DNA of 35,163 nucleotides from positions 1 to 35,163 of the forward strand of contig JACRCI010000012.1 of NCBI GenBank assembly GCA_016219105.1, in the 5' to 3' direction. Made by a program: the position numbers and the translations under genes. Under the pieces are notes generated by a model. It was not told the DNA's origin, made no database searches, and saw only the letters and a program-made list of their open reading frames with translations. This DNA comes from Deltaproteobacteria bacterium. GTDB taxonomy: Bacteria; Desulfobacterota; GWC2-55-46; DRQE01. Shown piece by piece: positions 26,955 to 35,163 of this stretch. Within the stretch, counting starts at the first letter, position 1, and each line of letters begins with the position of its first letter.

Positions 26955-27314
26955 CTACAGGCTCACCTTTACGACGGTCTTGACGTTGCCCCTCACGTTG
27001 AAGTCTCCGATGACCTCGAGGCTCCTCGGTTTGAGGAGTTTTTTGAGGTCGTCGAATACCGTATTGGCCGCGGCCTCGTGGGATATATGCCTGTGGCGGA
27101 ATGAATTGAGATAGAGCTTCAGGGATTTGAGTTCAACGACCTTCCGTGCCGGCGTATAGGCCACCCTTATCGTCGCGAAGTCCGGATAGCCTGACCGCGG
27201 GCAGAGGCAGGTGAATTCCGGGTAGCTTATCTCCACCGTGTAGTCCCTGTCCGCGAAGGGGTTGTCCCAGGCCTCGAGTTTCGCTTCCTTTGTTTTTCCC
27301 TCTCCGTGCCTCAT
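26955..27314 (-). CDS. queF: 7-cyano-7-deazaguanine (preQ0) reductase, short unimodular type
   Basis: A 119-residue QueF, which reduces the nitrile of preQ0 to the amine of preQ1 with NADPH on the way to queuosine in tRNA. Catalytic C38 lies in [12 protein letters not shown]45 is the matching acid, and the QueF motif [13 protein letters not shown] starts at E61. A substrate-binding H79-E80 pair follows. The length matches the Bacillus-type tunnelling-fold enzyme. Start ATG lies at the predicted +1 of its promoter with no Shine-Dalgarno. No other queuosine genes are in the window. It converges on the helicase gene with a 54-base gap. Confidence 0.95.
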
Positions 27315-27320
27315 GCGGGG

Positions 27321-27349
27321 ATTCTAACATCTCGCCGGGCTCGTGTCAA
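27321..27349 (-). promoter_or_regulatory. Strong promoter of queF (minus strand)
   Basis: TTGACA (27344-27349), 17 bases, TAGAAT (27321-27326) preceded by TGt. The predicted start of transcription is at or within a base or two of the queF ATG (27314), so the mRNA would be leaderless. Confidence 0.8.
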
Positions 27350-27366: not shown

Positions 27367-27395
27367 TTGACATAGTTTCAATATTTCGCAATAAT
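27367..27395 (+). promoter_or_regulatory. Strong promoter of arsR-dsrE
   Basis: A perfect TTGACA (27367-27372), 17 bases, and AATAAT (27390-27395, 5 of 6). The predicted start of transcription is about 27402, the A of the ArsR ATG. No ribosome site precedes that ATG. The two divergent -35 boxes are 17 bases apart. Confidence 0.8.
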
Positions 27396-27401: not shown

Positions 27402-27728
27402 ATGAAGGAGGTATTCAAACTCCACGCCGAGGTCTGCAAGACGCTCGCCAACGCAAAGAGGCTCGAGATCATCTACGCCCTCAGGGACGGGGAGAGGGGC
27501 GTTGATGAGATGACCCGGATGCTCGGCCTCAAGAAGGCGAACGTATCGCAGCATCTTGGGGTTTTAAGGGCCGCGGGTGTCGTAAAGACAAGGAGGGAGG
27601 GCGTCAATGTATATTACAGGATAGCCAACCCCAAGATAATAAAGGCGTGCGCCATGATGAGGGAGGTAATGATGGAGATGCTGGGCGAGAGGCAATCCAT
27701 GCTCAGGATATTGAAAGGGAGGAGGTAG
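27402..27728 (+). CDS. ArsR-family winged-helix transcriptional regulator
   Basis: A 108-residue ArsR/SmtB-type regulator. The opening MKEVFKLHAEVCKTLANAKR is typical, with helix-turn-helix GVDEMTRMLGLKKANVSQHL (about residues 33-52) and the wing VVKTRREGVNVYYRI. It has only two cysteines, C12 and C83, in helix 1 and the C-terminal dimerisation helix. The metal-binding ELCVCDL motif of arsenic sensors is absent. The pair could be a thiol or persulfide sensor, as in SqrR/BigR; that is inference. I chose ATG 27402 because the protein then starts as its homologues do; an upstream frame opening at 27306 lies across the promoter. An AAGGAGG sits just inside the gene. DsrE follows 2 bases after the stop. 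Confidence 0.9.
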   Translation: MKEVFKLHAEVCKTLANAKRLEIIYALRDGERGVDEMTRMLGLKKANVSQHLGVLRAAGVVKTRREGVNVYYRIANPKIIKACAMMREVMMEMLGERQSMLRILKGRR

Positions 27729-27730
27729 GG

Positions 27731-28081
27731 ATGGAAAAGGTCACGATCGTATTGCAGGACGCGCCTTACGGGAACGAAAGGGTGTGGAACGCCCTGAGAC
27801 TTACGGAGGCGCTCCTTACGGAGGGCGTCGGAGTGAGGATATTCCTCTACGGCGACAGCGTCACCTCGGCCGTGAAGGGGCAGTCGCCGCCAAAGGGTTT
27901 TTATAACATAGGCGAGATGCTCGAAAACCTCATGAAAAAGGGCGCGGAGGTGCGCGCCTGCCTCACCTGCACCAGGGCGAGGGGGCTAAAGCAGGAGGAC
28001 TTTGTGGAAGGCGCGGTCGTGGGCAAGACGATAGACCTGGCGCGCTGGATAAAAGAGGGCGGGCAGGTCATGACGTTCTGA
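27731..28081 (+). CDS. DsrE-family sulfur-carrier-like protein
   Basis: A 116-residue DsrE/F-like protein. The N-terminal VTIVLQDAPYGNERVWNALR, the VRIFLYGDSVTSAVKGQ segment and the PKGFYNIGEMLENL helix are family hallmarks. The functional cysteines lie in RACLTCTRARGL (C77 and C80). Family members bind or pass sulfane sulfur as persulfides, or act in sulfur-relay complexes. The ATG at 27731 follows the ArsR stop by 2 bases and has GGAGG about 5 bases upstream. An earlier in-frame start at 27647 would overlap ArsR and is rejected. It is probably the regulated partner of ArsR. The stop is followed at 28114 by the 21-bp repeat array. Confidence 0.9.
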   Translation: MEKVTIVLQDAPYGNERVWNALRLTEALLTEGVGVRIFLYGDSVTSAVKGQSPPKGFYNIGEMLENLMKKGAEVRACLTCTRARGLKQEDFVEGAVVGKTIDLARWIKEGGQVMTF

Positions 28082-28113
28082 GGATAGGCGTAGGGGAGGG
28101 GGGCGGCCACGCC

Positions 28114-28175
28114 GGCAACCAGCCGGCCATGCCGGCCAGCCAGCCGTCCACGACGGCCAGCCAGCCGTCCACGAC
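28114..28175 (+). repeat. Three tandem 21-bp repeat units (locus C)
   Basis: Units at 28114-28133 (20 bases, one deletion), 28134-28154 and 28155-28175; the last two are identical. Core CCAGCCGTCCACG. GCCGTC-CAC-GACGGC hairpins form within and across units. The array lies between dsrE and the promoter of the TMTC-like gene. An open frame starting inside it (ATG 28129) would give a Ser-Gln-Pro-Thr repeat and is not believed to be coding. Confidence 0.88.
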
Positions 28176-28200
28176 GGTTCCCTGCGCCTGGAAACTGTTA

Positions 28201-28206
28201 TATAAT
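28201..28206 (+). promoter_or_regulatory. -10 element of the TMTC-like gene
   Basis: A perfect TATAAT lies 10 bases before the ATG at 28216, with TGT just upstream. The -35 position (28178-28183) reads TTCCCT, a poor match. Transcription would start near 28213, so the mRNA would be nearly leaderless. A GAGGG only 2 bases before the ATG is too close to act as a normal ribosome site. Confidence 0.5.
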
Positions 28207-28215
28207 ACGAGGGCA

Positions 28216-30201
28216 ATGCAGCATAACGCGCCGCACTCAAAAGCCGTCAGGTTCAGGTATGTGGCCATCGCCGTTATTTTTCTGGTTTCAGGCGCGGCCT
28301 ACCTGAACACCCTCTCCTTTTATTTCGTCTACGACGACGAGTTGCAGGTGTTGAAAAACCCGTGGATCAGGGACGCGGGCCATATCCCTCAGATATTTTT
28401 CAAGGACGTATGGGCGTTTTTAGGGGACGAAAAAATGTTTTCAAATTACTACCGTCCCCTGATGCACATGATATTCATGATAAGTTATCACGTCTTTGGC
28501 CTCAAGCCGTGGGGTTTCCACCTCGTAAACGTGCTGCTCAACGCCGCTGTCTCGGTCGTGGTGTTCATGGTCGCGGCCGCGCTTTTTGAGCAAACGACTC
28601 CTTCGACAGCCGGGGAAAAACGGAATGGCCTGTTGCTTCCCTTCATGGCCGCGCTTCTGTTTTCCACCCACCCGGTCCACACCGAGGCCGTTGCGTGGGT
28701 GAGCGGAGTGCCCGAGCTTCTGTTCACGCTCTTTTATCTCCTTTCCTTATATTTCTATATGAAAGACGGGGATAAGGGCGGTAAGAAACTGCTTTTATCC
28801 GCGGTCTTTTTCTTCCTCTCCGCGCTTTCTAAGGAGACCGCCCTTACATTGCCGGTAATTTTATTTGCCTATGATTACTGCAGACCGTCCTTTTTTCAGA
28901 GGGAGAGGGCGGGGATGATGGGTTTAAAGAGATACATTCCCTACGTGGTTGCGGCCGCGGCATACATGATCCTCCGTACCCATGCCATCGGATGGATTCC
29001 CCATTTGAAGCGGCATGCCGAGTTGAGCGGCTACGAATATTTCATTAACATCTTCCCTCTGTTCGCGCAGTATCTCGGAAAGCTCTTCTGGCCAGCGAAC
29101 CTGAACGCGTTTTACGTCCTTCACCCGATATCCTCCGTGTTTGAATGGAGGGGGACGGTTTCTGTTTCAATCACCCTCGCTTTTATCCTCTTTGCGTATC
29201 TTTTGCGGCGGAGGAGCCCAACCGCCTTTTTCGGCCTTCTCCTGATAGCGGCCCCGCTCCTGCCGGTCCTTTACATCGCGGCCCTCGGGAAAAACACGTT
29301 CGCCGAGAGGTACCTGTATCTTCCCTCGGCCGGGTTTGCGATACTCACGGCCATGATGCTGGATAGGGTTTACAGGACGAAGGCGCTTGGACGGGCTGCG
29401 GCTCCTGCGGCAATCGCGGTATTGATTGTCATAACCGGATTTTACTCAGCCGGCACGGCCATGAGGAATCCGGTCTGGAAGGACAGTTACGCCCTATGGT
29501 CGGATACCGTCAAGAAGTCTCCGGACGAGGCTTGGCCTCACACCGCGCTGGCCAATGTTTACTATGCTAACGGGCTGATTGACAGGGCCGTCGAGCATTA
29601 CGAGACCGCCCTCGGATTGATGCCCGGGTATTCCGTGGCCCATAACAACCTTGGAAGCATCTACCAGAAGAAGGGCTTGATTGACAGGGCCATGGAGCAC
29701 TACGAGGCCGCGCTTGCGTCCAAGCCCCAGTCCCCTGAGATTCACTACAATCTGGGCGACGTCTATTACGAAAAGGGCTGGATCGACAGGGCCATCGGAC
29801 ATTACGAGGCCGCCGTGGCGATAAGACCCGCGTTTGAAATAGCCCACTACGGACTGGCCAACGCGTATTACGACAGGGGGTTGGTGGACATGGCCGTTGA
29901 GCATTACAGGATTGCCGTGGACCTGAGGCCGGACTACGCGGATGCGCACTATAAGCTCGGCATAGTCTATGCAAAACAGGGCCGCCTGGACGAGGCGATG
30001 GATGAGTTCAGGATAGACCTCGGCCTTGAGCCCGGCCGGGCGGAAGCCCATTACAATATGGGCGTTATCCTCGAAGCAAAGGGGATGACGGGCGAGGCCA
30101 TGAAGGAATTTGAAGCGGCCTCGAAGCTGAGGCCGGACCTTGCCCGTCCCGGTCAGGCTGTTCGTGCGCCCTTCGATGTCCCGCTGGGCGCCGGACGGTA
30201 A
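28216..30201 (+). CDS. Multi-pass membrane protein with C-terminal TPR repeats (TMTC-like GT-C)
   Basis: A 661-residue protein. The first two-thirds (to about residue 430) contains roughly ten hydrophobic segments. It has a DD pair at D40-D41 in FVYDDELQVLKNPWIRD, just after the first helix, as in GT-C glycosyltransferases of the PMT/TMTC type. Residues 440-645 form six tetratricopeptide repeats of 34 residues. Three of these share near-identical DNA at 102-base spacing (around 29581, 29683, 29785), which suggests recent duplication. Eukaryotic TMTC proteins O-mannosylate cadherins; bacterial relatives are uncharacterised, so protein or lipid glycosylation is a guess. I chose ATG 28216; an upstream ATG at 28129 lies in the 21-bp repeats. 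Confidence 0.85.
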   Translation: MQHNAPHSKAVRFRYVAIAVIFLVSGAAYLNTLSFYFVYDDELQVLKNPWIRDAGHIPQIFFKDVWAFLGDEKMFSNYYRPLMHMIFMISYHVFGLKPWGFHLVNVLLNAAVSVVVFMVAAALFEQTTPSTAGEKRNGLLLPFMAALLFSTHPVHTEAVAWVSGVPELLFTLFYLLSLYFYMKDGDKGGKKLLLSAVFFFLSALSKETALTLPVILFAYDYCRPSFFQRERAGMMGLKRYIPYVVAAAAYMILRTHAIGWIPHLKRHAELSGYEYFINIFPLFAQYLGKLFWPANLNAFYVLHPISSVFEWRGTVSVSITLAFILFAYLLRRRSPTAFFGLLLIAAPLLPVLYIAALGKNTFAERYLYLPSAGFAILTAMMLDRVYRTKALGRAAAPAAIAVLIVITGFYSAGTAMRNPVWKDSYALWSDTVKKSPDEAWPHTALANVYYANGLIDRAVEHYETALGLMPGYSVAHNNLGSIYQKKGLIDRAMEHYEAALASKPQSPEIHYNLGDVYYEKGWIDRAIGHYEAAVAIRPAFEIAHYGLANAYYDRGLVDMAVEHYRIAVDLRPDYADAHYKLGIVYAKQGRLDEAMDEFRIDLGLEPGRAEAHYNMGVILEAKGMTGEAMKEFEAASKLRPDLARPGQAVRAPFDVPLGAGR

Positions 30202-30274
30202 CGGTCCGGACTGTCAGCCGGTCACGGGCGGCGTCTTGAGACGAGCCGGGTTATTTAGTTTCCGGGAGGCTTGT

Positions 30275-31528
30275 ATGGCGAGGATTGTCATAATAGGCGC
30301 ATCAACCGGGGGGCTGTCTGCTGCCTACGAAATGAAAAAGACCCTCGGGCCGGGCCATGACGTCACGGTCATTTCGAACGCCTCGGATTTTCACTTCGTG
30401 CCGTCAAACCCCTGGGTCGCGGTCGGCTGGAGGACGAGAGGCGACATAAGTTTTCCCCTGAAGCCCTGCCTTGACAGGAAGGGAATAAATCTGATAGTTG
30501 AGGCCGCCGGGAATATAGACCCGCGTAAAAACGAGGTGACAACCGTCAAGGGCGTCGTTGTGCCATACGACTACCTCGTCATAGCGACAGGGCCGAAGCT
30601 CGCCTTTGATGAGGTCGAGGGCCTTGGGCCTGATGAAAACACGGTCTCCGTATGCACGGTAGACCACGCCGAGGCGGCTTACGCGGCCTACATGAAATTC
30701 CTCGCGGACCCCGGTCCGGTCGTCATAGGCGCGGCGCAGGGCGCGTCATGCCTCGGGCCGGCGTACGAGTTCGCCTTCATACTCGATACGGATTTGAGGA
30801 AACGCGGGCTGCGCAAGAGGGTGCCGATGACCTTCATAACGCCGGAGCCATATATCGGGCACATGGGGCTTGCCGGCATAGGCGATTCAAAGGGTCTTAT
30901 CGAGCACGAATTCCGCCAGAGGCATATAAACTGGCAAACCAGCGTAAGGATAAAAAAGGCCGGGGCAGGGAAGATGACCGTGGATATCGCGGGGGAGGGG
31001 GAAAAGGAACTCCCGTTCAGGTACTCGATGATAATCCCGGCCTTCAGGGGCGTTTCGGCGGTGGCAGGGGTCGAGGGGCTTACCAACGCCAGAGGCTTTG
31101 TCATGGTTGATGAATTTCAGCGGTCGCCGAAATACGGCAATATCCATGCGGTCGGCGTATGCATCGCGATAGCGCCGGTCGAGGCAACGGCGGTGCCCAC
31201 GGGCGTGCCGAAGACCGGGTACATGATAGAGTCCATGGCGGCGGCGGCCGTGGAAAACATAAGGGCCGCGATAAATGGGGAGGAGGCCCGCGCAAAGGCC
31301 ACGTGGAACGCCATATGCTTCGCCGACATGGGGGATACCGGGATAGCGTTCGTGGCAATGCCCGAGATACCCCCGCGCAACGTCACGTGGGCTAAAAAGG
31401 GCAGATGGGTGCATCTTGTGAAGGTTGCGTTTGAAAAATACTTTTTGAGGAAGATGAAAAAAGGGATCGTAGAGCCTTTCTACGAAAAGATAATCCTCGA
31501 TGCGCTTAGAATCAGAAAAATCGAATAA
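30275..31528 (+). CDS. Sulfide:quinone oxidoreductase (SQR) family flavoprotein
   Basis: A 417-residue FAD-dependent disulfide-type oxidoreductase. The N-terminal Rossmann motif is VIIGASTGGLSAAYEM. Three cysteines sit where SQR of the Acidithiobacillus type has its redox set: C127 in SVCTVDHA, C159 in QGASCLGPAYEF, and C348 in NAICFADMGD. The C-terminal basic, amphipathic helices (VKVAFEKYFLRKMKKG) fit monotopic membrane insertion. SQR oxidises sulfide to polysulfide or persulfide and passes electrons to quinone. The ATG at 30275 has GGGAGG 7 bases upstream; an open frame back to 30140 overlaps the TMTC gene and lacks family resemblance. SQR-like proteins lacking the cysteines do exist, but this one keeps all three. 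Confidence 0.88.
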   Translation: MARIVIIGASTGGLSAAYEMKKTLGPGHDVTVISNASDFHFVPSNPWVAVGWRTRGDISFPLKPCLDRKGINLIVEAAGNIDPRKNEVTTVKGVVVPYDYLVIATGPKLAFDEVEGLGPDENTVSVCTVDHAEAAYAAYMKFLADPGPVVIGAAQGASCLGPAYEFAFILDTDLRKRGLRKRVPMTFITPEPYIGHMGLAGIGDSKGLIEHEFRQRHINWQTSVRIKKAGAGKMTVDIAGEGEKELPFRYSMIIPAFRGVSAVAGVEGLTNARGFVMVDEFQRSPKYGNIHAVGVCIAIAPVEATAVPTGVPKTGYMIESMAAAAVENIRAAINGEEARAKATWNAICFADMGDTGIAFVAMPEIPPRNVTWAKKGRWVHLVKVAFEKYFLRKMKKGIVEPFYEKIILDALRIRKIE

Positions 31529-31543
31529 CCTCCCCGGGCGGTG

Positions 31544-33886
31544 ATGCAGGAAAAAAAATCCATCGTTGAATTCTCCGTTGACCATCCGAGGCTTGTCCTT
31601 GTTGTCACCGCGGCGCTGACCGTTCTCTTCCTTACGCAGTTTCAGAAGATACGGATAGACACGAACCCGAAGAACATGCTCCCGCAGACCTCTTCGGTGC
31701 GTGTCTGGAACGACGAGGTCGAGAAGGCCTTCGGCCTCCATGAGGACACAATCGTCGTTGGGATAGTGAACGAGGACGGGGTCCTCAACCGGCGGACCCT
31801 CGGCAAGGTCATCCGTATGACCGATGAGGCGGCCCGGATAAAAGGCGTGGCGGCCAGCGACATAACCGGTTTCCCGACCATAACCAACGTGACGGTCGAG
31901 CACGGTGTTTTGAGGGTGGCCCCCTTGATGGAGGCGGCGGCAGTCCCCGGGGATGATAAAGAGGCGGATGAGTTGAGGGAAAGCCTCTTTGCAAACCCGA
32001 TGTTCATAGACCGCGTCATATCGAAAGACGGAAAGACGACGGCGGTCTACGTCCCCCTTGAAAAAGGGGCGAACGGCAAGGAAGTCGCCGATAAGTTGAG
32101 GGAGATAGTTAAGAAGGAAGGCGGCCCCGAAAAATACCATATCGCCGGAGACCCGGTGGCGAGGGACACCTTCGGCGCGGAGATGTTCAAGCTCATGGGC
32201 ATATTCTCCCCCATAGCCGGGATGATAATGTTCGCCGTTGCATACGTCATGTTCAGGAGTTTTTTCCTCGCCGCATCCATCATGATACCCGCGATGGTGA
32301 TAATAATCTGGAGCATGGGACTGTTGATAGGCATGGGGTTTCCGGTGCACATCATGAGTTCCATGAGCCCTGTGTTCCTGATGGCCATAGCGACCGATTC
32401 CATCCATATATTCAACGAATTCTGCTTCAGGTTCCGGGAGGGGAAGGAACGGAAGGCCGCGATAATCGAGACCATGAAGGCGGTCGGGGTTCCTCTCGTC
32501 TATTCCGACTTGACGACGGCCGTCGGCTTCGGCTCGCTCCTTTTAGCAAACATCATACCGGTGAAGGTCTTCGGCCTCGGCGTGGCCTTCGGCACGCTGG
32601 TATTGCTTCTGTCGAGCTTTACCCTTATACCGGCGTTTCTCATGTTTATCGGCGATGAAAAATTAAGCCGCGCGTCTTCAAGGGAGGAAGCCGGAGCGGG
32701 CAGGACTCCGGCTTTACTGAGCAGGCTCGCCGGCCTCGGCGCGATGAGGCCGAAGGCGACCGTTGCCGTTGGGTTCGTCCTCCTTATAATCGCCGTTGCG
32801 GGCGTGACCATGATATCGGTCAACAACAACATGGTCGGGTGGTTCAAGAAAGGAAGCGATATACGAAGGGCGGACGCCGTGATAAACTCGTCCCTCGGAG
32901 GGACTTCGCTGGCGTATGTCGTCGCGGTCTCGGATGAAGAGGACTTCATCAAGACCCCGGAGGCAATGAGGTATATAGATGGCCTCCAGAGGCGTCTGGA
33001 AAGGCTTAAGGTTGTCGGAAAGACGGCTTCGGTCGTTGATTACGTAAAGAGGATAAACCTGGTCCTGCACGATAACGACCCGAAATACGACTCCGTGCCC
33101 GGCGCAAAAGGCACGATAGGACAGTATCTCTTCCTCTTCGGCATGTCGGCAAGGCCCTCTGACCTCGACAGCGTCGTGGATTACCCGTTCAGAAGGGCGA
33201 ACGTCTGGGTGCAGCTCAAGACATGGGACGCCGGGGCGATGAGGGATGTGATGAAGGCGGTGGACGAATACAAAAGGGCCAACCAGGACATCGGTCTTGA
33301 GCTTAAGCCGGCCGGCATCGCGTATTTCAACCTCGTATGGAACGACGAGGTCCTCTGGGACATGCTCAAGGGTTTTATATTCGCGATGGCGGTCATCTTC
33401 GTGATCCTCTCATATAACTTCCGTTCGGTGAAATGGGCGGCAGTGGCTTATATGCCGCTGCTTTTCACCATCACCTTAATCTACGGGGTCATCGGGTTTA
33501 TGGGCAAGGACTTCGACATGCCGATAGCGGTCTTAAGCTGCCTGTCGCTCGGCATGGCCGTTGATTTCTCGATACATTTCATAGGCAGGTTCAGACAGCG
33601 TCTTGCGGAGGCGTCCTCGCCGGCCGGCACTCCGGCCTCGACGGATATAACCGAGGCCCTCCTCTGGACAGCCTCAAGGCCGGGCAGGGGCATAATGCGC
33701 AACGCGGTCCTTTTCGCCTCGGCCTTCTCGGTCATGCTCTTTGCGCCCCTTACGCCGTACATAACGGTGGGCGCGTTCATAGCGGCCATGATGATGTTGA
33801 GCGCGTTTTTTACGATAATCTATCTGCCGGCCCTGATAGTTTTGATGAAGGGCCGGCTGCTTAAACCGGCAAAACCGGTTGGTTGA
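31544..33886 (+). CDS. RND/MMPL-type exporter (lipid or hydrophobic-substrate)
   Basis: A 780-residue inner-membrane protein with two MMPL halves and about 12 membrane segments. It has an N-terminal helix (LVLVVTAALTVLFL) followed by a periplasmic domain. The sterol-sensing-like helix set includes MAIATDSIHIFNEFCFRF and the second-half counterpart GMAVDFSIHFIGRFRQRL. Acidic residues in these helices (D in ATDS and AVDFS) fit proton coupling. Family members export lipids such as hopanoids, mycolates or glycolipids. The ATG at 31544 follows a GTG at 31541. The stop codon lies inside a 21-bp repeat unit. It sits 15 bases after SQR and 34 before the sorting-like protein, and is likely in an operon with both. 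Confidence 0.88.
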   Translation: MQEKKSIVEFSVDHPRLVLVVTAALTVLFLTQFQKIRIDTNPKNMLPQTSSVRVWNDEVEKAFGLHEDTIVVGIVNEDGVLNRRTLGKVIRMTDEAARIKGVAASDITGFPTITNVTVEHGVLRVAPLMEAAAVPGDDKEADELRESLFANPMFIDRVISKDGKTTAVYVPLEKGANGKEVADKLREIVKKEGGPEKYHIAGDPVARDTFGAEMFKLMGIFSPIAGMIMFAVAYVMFRSFFLAASIMIPAMVIIIWSMGLLIGMGFPVHIMSSMSPVFLMAIATDSIHIFNEFCFRFREGKERKAAIIETMKAVGVPLVYSDLTTAVGFGSLLLANIIPVKVFGLGVAFGTLVLLLSSFTLIPAFLMFIGDEKLSRASSREEAGAGRTPALLSRLAGLGAMRPKATVAVGFVLLIIAVAGVTMISVNNNMVGWFKKGSDIRRADAVINSSLGGTSLAYVVAVSDEEDFIKTPEAMRYIDGLQRRLERLKVVGKTASVVDYVKRINLVLHDNDPKYDSVPGAKGTIGQYLFLFGMSARPSDLDSVVDYPFRRANVWVQLKTWDAGAMRDVMKAVDEYKRANQDIGLELKPAGIAYFNLVWNDEVLWDMLKGFIFAMAVIFVILSYNFRSVKWAAVAYMPLLFTITLIYGVIGFMGKDFDMPIAVLSCLSLGMAVDFSIHFIGRFRQRLAEASSPAGTPASTDITEALLWTASRPGRGIMRNAVLFASAFSVMLFAPLTPYITVGAFIAAMMMLSAFFTIIYLPALIVLMKGRLLKPAKPVG

Positions 33887-34736: not shown

Positions 34737-35163
34737 CGGGCGGTGGGAAATTCCAAGTGCCGCTTTTTTTGTCCCCATGCCGTAAGCTCATGGGCATCCC
34801 GCCTCTGCCTGCCAGCCTGCCTCGCCGGTTTTTCGCGCTGATAACAACGCTGTTTTTATCCTTCTTTCCAGTTGGCCTCGCCGGCCTGCCAGCCGTCCTC
34901 GACGGCCATCCGGCCGAGGCGTATGCCGGGGAACCCTCGGCGCACGGTTTTTTGCAGGGGAATTACTCTCTCAACACGGCCGCGCAGAATCCTGACGGCA
35001 AGGATTTCAAATGGGCCGAGGTGCGGGGGCAGATAAAACTCGATGCCCCGGGAGAGACGCTCCGGCTGTTCATAAAGACCGACATATCCTACGACCATAT
35101 AGATGGAGATGGCGGCGGAGAATTAAGGGAAGGCTACCTCGATGTTACGGGCAAGAACTGGGA
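34733..35163 (+). CDS. N-terminal part of a probable outer-membrane beta-barrel protein (runs off window)
   Basis: An open frame of at least 143 codons that continues past base 35163. It overlaps the preceding gene as ATGA. A hydrophobic segment (FFALITTLFLSFFPVGLAG) and an AYAG-type cleavage site form a long signal peptide. The mature part starts HGFLQGNYSLNTAAQNPDG, with alternating polar/hydrophobic strands (WAEVRGQIKLD, LRLFIKTDISYDHI), as in porin-like or DUF1302-type barrels. The codons after the hydrophobic core come from 21-bp repeat units, giving a PVGLAGLPAVLDGHPAEA stretch. An ATG at 34790 is an alternative start. With the RND pump and LolA-like protein it would complete an envelope transport set; that function is inference. 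Confidence 0.6.
   Translation, partial: MTGGGKFQVPLFLSPCRKLMGIPPLPASLPRRFFALITTLFLSFFPVGLAGLPAVLDGHPAEAYAGEPSAHGFLQGNYSLNTAAQNPDGKDFKWAEVRGQIKLDAPGETLRLFIKTDISYDHIDGDGGGELREGYLDVTGKNW
34806..34826 (+). repeat. Degenerate 21-bp repeat unit (locus E1)
   Basis: A divergent unit (core CCAGCCTGCCTCG) inside the 5' part of the last gene, encoding part of an LPASLPR stretch before the hydrophobic core of the signal peptide. The match is weaker than at other loci. Confidence 0.45.
34862..34903 (+). repeat. Two 21-bp repeat units within coding sequence (locus E2)
   Basis: A degenerate unit (34862-34882) and a good unit (34883-34903, core CCAGCCGTCCTCG) in register, followed by a partial third. They lie in the signal-peptide end of the last gene; 21 bases equal 7 codons, so the frame is kept. 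Confidence 0.7.

Follow-up and report, generated by a model that had tools for sequence, protein, structure and literature searches.

An ArsR-family gene with cysteines in helices 1 and 5 heads a conserved operon and may encode a sulfur switch in uncultured bacteria

Does a gene for a two-cysteine ArsR-family protein, standing ahead of genes for a DsrE protein, a TMTC-like protein and a sulfide:quinone oxidoreductase (SQR), mark a sulfide-responsive operon and, if so, is its sensor of the type already known? The window, by which we mean the whole stretch of 35,163 nucleotides analyzed here, is one contig (C114) of a 1.87 Mb genome. On its forward strand, the gene for the putative ArsR-family repressor (27402–27728; 108 aa) is followed by those for a DsrE-superfamily sulfur-carrier protein (27731–28081; 116 aa), a TMTC/TPR membrane protein (28216–30201) and SQR (30275–31528; 417 aa). 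The original prediction ended at 31528; the same-strand genes run on past that point with an MMPL-family RND exporter (31541–33886) and a LolA-like outer-membrane lipoprotein-sorting protein (PF17131; 33918–34736), both conserved partners in the operon, and then a porin-like gene of which only the start (34737–35163) precedes the contig end and whose relatives match DUF1302 weakly. The divergent flanking gene, QueF (26955–27314, reverse strand), has its own promoter and lies outside the proposed response.

The regulator belongs to the ArsR/SmtB superfamily, as it matches the HTH_5 profile PF01022 at 46.4 bits (cut-off 22) and its predicted structure (pLDDT 93.8) is a winged helix-turn-helix with the order H-H-H-H-E-E-H. 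A start at GTG 27306, which would give a protein of 140 aa, was ruled out by the conserved promoter and the alignment, both of which point to ATG 27402. Its only cysteines are those at positions 12 and 83, and its only histidines are H8 and H51, so that the protein lacks a CXC metal motif while keeping C12 and C83, just as had been claimed for it. In the model, C12 lies within helix 1 (residues 2–15) and C83 within helix 5 (residues 77–106).

A search of 97 genomes for this ArsR gave matches in 87, many of them distant; the 60 loci around the better matches were read and, together with the window, form an alignment of 61 rows. Of the 59 rows with a residue at position 12, 58 have cysteine there and L081 has serine; at position 83, cysteine is found in 60 of 61 rows, the distant L088 having isoleucine. 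Orthologs thus conserve both cysteines, a point on which the original prediction depended. Among 80 named loci, 46 of them outside Deltaproteobacteria, 79 keep both residues (row L158, where a second ArsR gene stands, was left out); because one of the two search patterns contained C12, the C12 figure in this named set is biased, and the conservation we quote for C12 is that of the genome search. A paralogous ArsR with cysteines 12, 14 and 83 (such as ICQCLANPKRLEI) was seen at L073–L075, L077–L079, L083–L085, L090 and L091. It precedes a small protein, h8 (L075:8033–8473 and relatives), which matches no Pfam or NCBIfam model and is followed at several loci by genes for SQR, a methyltransferase, MMPL, LolA and a porin; the upstream DNA of this paralog is different, with a TATTTAATAAATTG-like repeat in some cases.

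Directly upstream of the window ArsR gene lies a sigma-70-type promoter, TTGACA-17-AATAAT (27367–27395, forward strand), which has 11 of 12 consensus bases, and since the start codon follows the -10 element by only 6 nt, the ArsR message is likely to be leaderless. On the reverse strand, QueF is preceded by TTGACA-17-TAGAAT (27321–27349), also close before its ATG, so that both messages look leaderless. Within the ArsR promoter we predict an operator, GTTTCAATATTTCGCAATAAT (27375–27395, forward strand), an imperfect inverted repeat with arms TTTC-N8-GCAA at 27376–27379 and 27388–27391 that is centered between the -35 and -10 elements. The 61 loci, some of which have their upstream DNA cut off or are of the paralog type, yielded 31 distinct upstream sequences; these share TTGACATtGTTTCaAaATTTCGCAATAATgcAAat, with the ArsR start codon directly after it in most. 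The TT/AA pairing between the arms is present in 31/31 sites and the C/G pairing in 30/31. When the window was excluded from the training set, its site scored 36.8, and no other separate site in the 35 kb scored above 4.7. In the window's own genome this is the single site within three mismatches, and no further operator targets were found there.

Across the 97 genomes, the operator pattern gave 60 matches within two mismatches, compared with 19 for a reversed control pattern. Nearly all of the 34 matches at zero or one mismatch lie upstream of ArsR genes (32, two of them about 140 bp up), the other two preceding a TolC-MFP-RND and an MMPL gene, respectively. The 26 matches with two mismatches include four upstream of ArsR and seven upstream of DsrE genes unlinked to ArsR; the remaining 15 are at chance level, and three that were inspected looked unrelated. 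A search for DsrE found 29 genes in 29 of the 97 genomes, 11 adjoining ArsR and 18 elsewhere. Of these 18 lone DsrE genes, the same seven carry the operator (scores 21–26, against a maximum of 16.7 for shuffled windows), one has a weak site (11.0) and ten score at most 1.5; QueF also flanks lone DsrE genes in several relatives. Two results here were counted against a sulfur switch, namely that 11 of the 18 lone DsrE genes are without a clear operator and that none of five SQR genes away from ArsR is preceded by one (best score 0.7). The stretch ATATTTAATAAGTTGCGAAAC, upstream of the lone SQR of G034 (L231), resembles the upstream repeat of the C12/C14/C83 paralog, and the lone SQR genes may therefore answer to that paralog.

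The genes behind the regulator recur as a conserved operon comprising ArsR, DsrE, a YgaP-like membrane protein, SQR, a methyltransferase, an MMPL pump, a LolA-like protein and a porin. Among 44 close loci (at least 55% ArsR identity, window included), the operon contains the YgaP-like membrane protein in 31, MMPL in 19, the LolA-like protein in 15, SQR of either kind in 14, a cytochrome c'-like protein in 14, a porin in 13, DsrE in 10 and TolC-MFP-RND in 9; one of the 44 was without a gene call. Over all identity classes, the loci that contribute nothing to the operon counts are L044, which lacks an ArsR gene call, and L083 and L088, for which there was no downstream run. Thirty-six of the 44 have SQR, DsrE or the YgaP-like protein in the operon, which bears out the proposed link of this ArsR to sulfur genes, and an MMPL or RND pump is present in 28. 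SQR and DsrE occur together in only four of the 44, which we counted against a sulfur switch. At 45–55% identity, SQR is found in seven and MMPL in eight of 15 loci, and at two loci below 45% neither is found. The 0.75 Mb around the ArsR relatives holds 19 SQR genes as against 30 in all 97 genomes, so that the ArsR–SQR arrangement is not due to chance; 25 of the 30 lie within 8 kb of an ArsR gene, 13 beside the ArsR described here and 12 beside the close paralog with cysteines 12 and 14. These 30 SQR genes are spread over 26 of the 97 genomes while ArsR matches occur in 87, a mismatch also weighed against a sulfur switch.

Outside Deltaproteobacteria, SQR and DsrE are both in the operon at 11 of the 46 named loci (seven Nitrospirota-type, two WOR-1, one Dehalococcoidia and one unnamed bacterium), DsrE or DsrH at 14, SelD or TauE/SafE at 8 and a pump at 6. 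None of the sulfur and pump genes sought is present at 24 of the 46, again counted against a sulfur switch; the association with sulfur genes is thus widespread but does not hold everywhere. SQR thus accompanies the ArsR–DsrE pair elsewhere, an association without which the original prediction would have fallen, and the arrangement recurs in other phyla. At the Nitrospirota-type loci L138, L141, L146, L148, L149, L164 and L170, genes for another ArsR, two DsrE-family proteins, DsrH and SQR stand behind the ArsR gene.

The TMTC-like gene matches TPR-family profiles as a membrane/TPR protein, the name TMTC coming from sequence only. Of its two possible starts, ATG 28216, which closely follows a TATAAT at 28201–28206, is more likely than ATG 28129. 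Two more copies are present in its own genome (78% and 58% identity) and relatives occur in 33 of 59 genomes, up to 11 per genome; none of the other loci read has it in the ArsR operon. We rejected it as a functional partner on these grounds and regard it as probably a duplicated insert, private to this genome at the ArsR operon and outside the module. Three 21-bp direct repeats (28116–28178) between the DsrE and TMTC genes are a possible trace of insertion, and at L037 a 257-aa TPR protein is encoded upstream of ArsR on the opposite strand. No separate promoter or operator could be made out clearly for SQR, which lies behind the TMTC gene. The idea of a sulfide-responsive neighborhood therefore stands in its sulfur-gene link, its cysteines unlike those of SqrR and its conservation, and falls as regards TMTC.

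Both sulfur proteins of the operon retain the residues expected of them. DsrE matches PF02635 at 82.9 bits and has a CLTC pair (C77 and C80), as originally noted, that is kept in 10 of 11 relatives; with this domain and conserved cysteine, and a score of 41.1 bits against a TusD equivalog cut-off of 89.25, it is by its sequence a member of the DsrE superfamily of carriers and not TusD itself. SQR aligns over its full length with a solved SQR, 3sz0, at 525 bits, and its three redox cysteines (C127, C159 and C348), whose retention had likewise been predicted, align with those of the solved protein; they are kept in 18 of 19 relatives, the remaining one being gapped there. The solved enzyme is of the Acidithiobacillus type; unlike it, the window SQR shares an operon that begins with ArsR and includes DsrE and an MMPL exporter. 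The only C12S ArsR, that of L081 (genome G001), keeps its operator (score 23.8), and the DsrE beside it is the only one of the 11 relatives without C77 and C80, IIES replacing CLTC. This joint loss, a single case, ties C12 to the DsrE thiols.

How does this ArsR compare with known sensors? Like SqrR, BigR, HlyU, YgaV and sHdrR (SSN cluster 4), it has the ArsR fold, two conserved cysteines and no metal motif; it also shares the SqrR/BigR trait of a genome link to sulfur oxidation and transfer genes, and its type of operon recalls SqrR/BigR-type operons in SQR, sulfur transferases and a YgaP-type membrane domain (E. coli ygaV-ygaP). Unlike SqrR, BigR and HlyU, whose cysteines lie in helices 2 and 5 (aligned positions 25 and 91), its pair lies in helices 1 and 5 (12 and 83), and it has MMPL/LolA/porin exporter partners and scores below the NCBIfam BigR cut-off (62.3 vs 155 bits). 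In the PDB alignments, at about 30% identity to the SqrR, BigR and HlyU structures, the residues aligned with the HlyU cysteines, without gaps, are Y25 and M91, and the SqrR structure aligns with an offset of 16; the C12/C83 pair is therefore not the SqrR pair, in agreement with the earlier remark that the positions differ. Screening the 97 genomes at the BigR cut-off gave no protein above it; this is weak evidence of absence, because E. coli, which has YgaV, gives none either. By sequence (80 bits) and by Foldseek (43% identity), the closest solved structure is Rv0081 of M. tuberculosis (PDB 6jmi, SSN cluster 3), which has neither cysteine, F and L standing at the aligned positions. The NCBIfam model TsoR (NF045707, Dbac_1936 type) gives a near full-length match at 55 bits, below its 115-bit cut-off, and our literature search for a TsoR regulator found only unrelated uses of the word.

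In a 2023 ArsR network study (PMC10509353), the persulfide sensors known to it all belong to a single cluster, whose cysteine pairs lie in helices 2 and 5; the Rv0081 cluster is left largely uncharacterized, Rv0081 itself being linked to the hypoxic response. A 2025 study of Hyphomicrobium (PMC12423496) used a model for regulators near shdr genes and describes many ArsR proteins retrieved by that model that are without the usual pair and may act differently. The window ArsR looks like a new variety of the known family of sulfur sensors. We propose tentatively, as a nearly even call, that it represents a second, independently placed persulfide-sensing dithiol of ArsR proteins, spanning helices 1 and 5, in a lineage near the Rv0081 group, and that it controls a sulfide regulon linking SQR and a DsrE carrier to trans-envelope exporters (MMPL-LolA-porin or RND).

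Starting from the operon, operator, regulon and cysteine conservation, all read from sequence, we infer the following mechanism. ArsR would sit on the inverted repeat between the -35 and -10 elements of its own promoter and block RNA polymerase, keeping the operon shut and limiting its own synthesis. The operon would serve the handling of sulfide and sulfane sulfur through the DsrE carrier and SQR, to which the operons of relatives add the YgaP-like membrane protein, methyltransferases and either MMPL/LolA/porin or TolC-MFP-RND exporters. Upon entry of sulfide, SQR and other enzymes would raise the level of persulfides or polysulfides, and these would modify C12 and C83, most likely to an S-S or S-Sn-S link within or between subunits, so that the repressor comes off the DNA and expression begins. 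DsrE and SQR would then take up and oxidize sulfide, while the exporters and the methyltransferases may remove products or repair the envelope. In many uncultured bacteria the ArsR switch lies ahead of genes for sulfide handling and pumps, and very probably has them under its control; that it is an autoregulated repressor of a sulfide or sulfane-sulfur response acting through the helix 1–helix 5 dithiol we hold with modest confidence.

Sulfur is favored over a metal, peroxide or another toxicant as the signal because of the neighboring genes and the joint loss. A thiol-liganded sensor of metals or metalloids (As, Hg, Cu, Cd), with C12 and C83 as ligands in the dimer and the pumps and methyltransferase under its control, would suit the fold, since the model aligns to SmtB, CzrA and CadC at Z 13–16, as it does to SqrR and BigR; pumps and methyltransferases are also frequent in these operons, and the best-scoring models for the MT23 protein are those of arsenite methyltransferases. 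It is nevertheless unlikely, given that the two cysteines form no CXC in helix 3 of the kind that marks metal-sensing ArsR proteins (SSN cluster 1), that the ArsM score is 96 bits against a cut-off of 263 and that the RND pump scores 487 bits with multidrug models vs 295 with CusA/CzcA; among annotated neighbors, moreover, no arsenic or metal-transport family recurred, whereas SQR, DsrE, DsrH and TauE/SafE did.

Two invariant cysteines could also form a C12–C83 disulfide in a general thiol-redox sensor of oxygen or peroxide, for which PMC10509353 offers a precedent in RexT, an ArsR protein that senses peroxide. The RexT cysteines described there are proximal and lie in helix 3, and the RexT group adjoins NADH oxidoreductases, while in our protein the third helix (34–41) is without cysteine, lacking the paired residues of the RexT type (SSN cluster 6), and the neighbors are sulfur genes; with the DsrE cysteines lost together with C12, we judge a redox sensor quite unlikely. 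It is decidedly improbable that the protein senses a selenium compound or a hydrophobic toxicant and that the sulfur genes simply travel along with it: the pumps at 28 of the 44 close loci and the SelD or TauE/SafE genes after ArsR at 8 of the 46 loci outside Deltaproteobacteria would fit such a sensor, but lone DsrE genes bear the same operator with no pump gene adjoining. That the protein is a canonical SqrR/BigR/HlyU member that we have misaligned can hardly be right, for despite its BigR match and its identity to the three structures, it scores far under the model's cut-off and the gapless HlyU alignment and SqrR offset leave it without the helix 2–helix 5 pair.

What is new here is a near-invariant predicted operator between the -35 and -10 elements of a leaderless-type promoter; for the tie between the MMPL exporter and sulfide, the cysteine pair and the operon, we found no description in the open-licence literature searched. 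If the sulfur switch proposed above is correct, the ArsR fold has been turned to this use more than once, and a broad unnamed branch spanning Deltaproteobacteria, Nitrospirota, WOR-1 and other uncultured lineages would gain a testable function. Because the operator is near-invariant, part of the regulon can be read from genomes alone. This predicted operator also ties the MMPL exporter module to sulfide. If the proposal holds, the regulon would suggest that sulfane sulfur prompts these uncultured bacteria to export components of their envelope or to remodel them.
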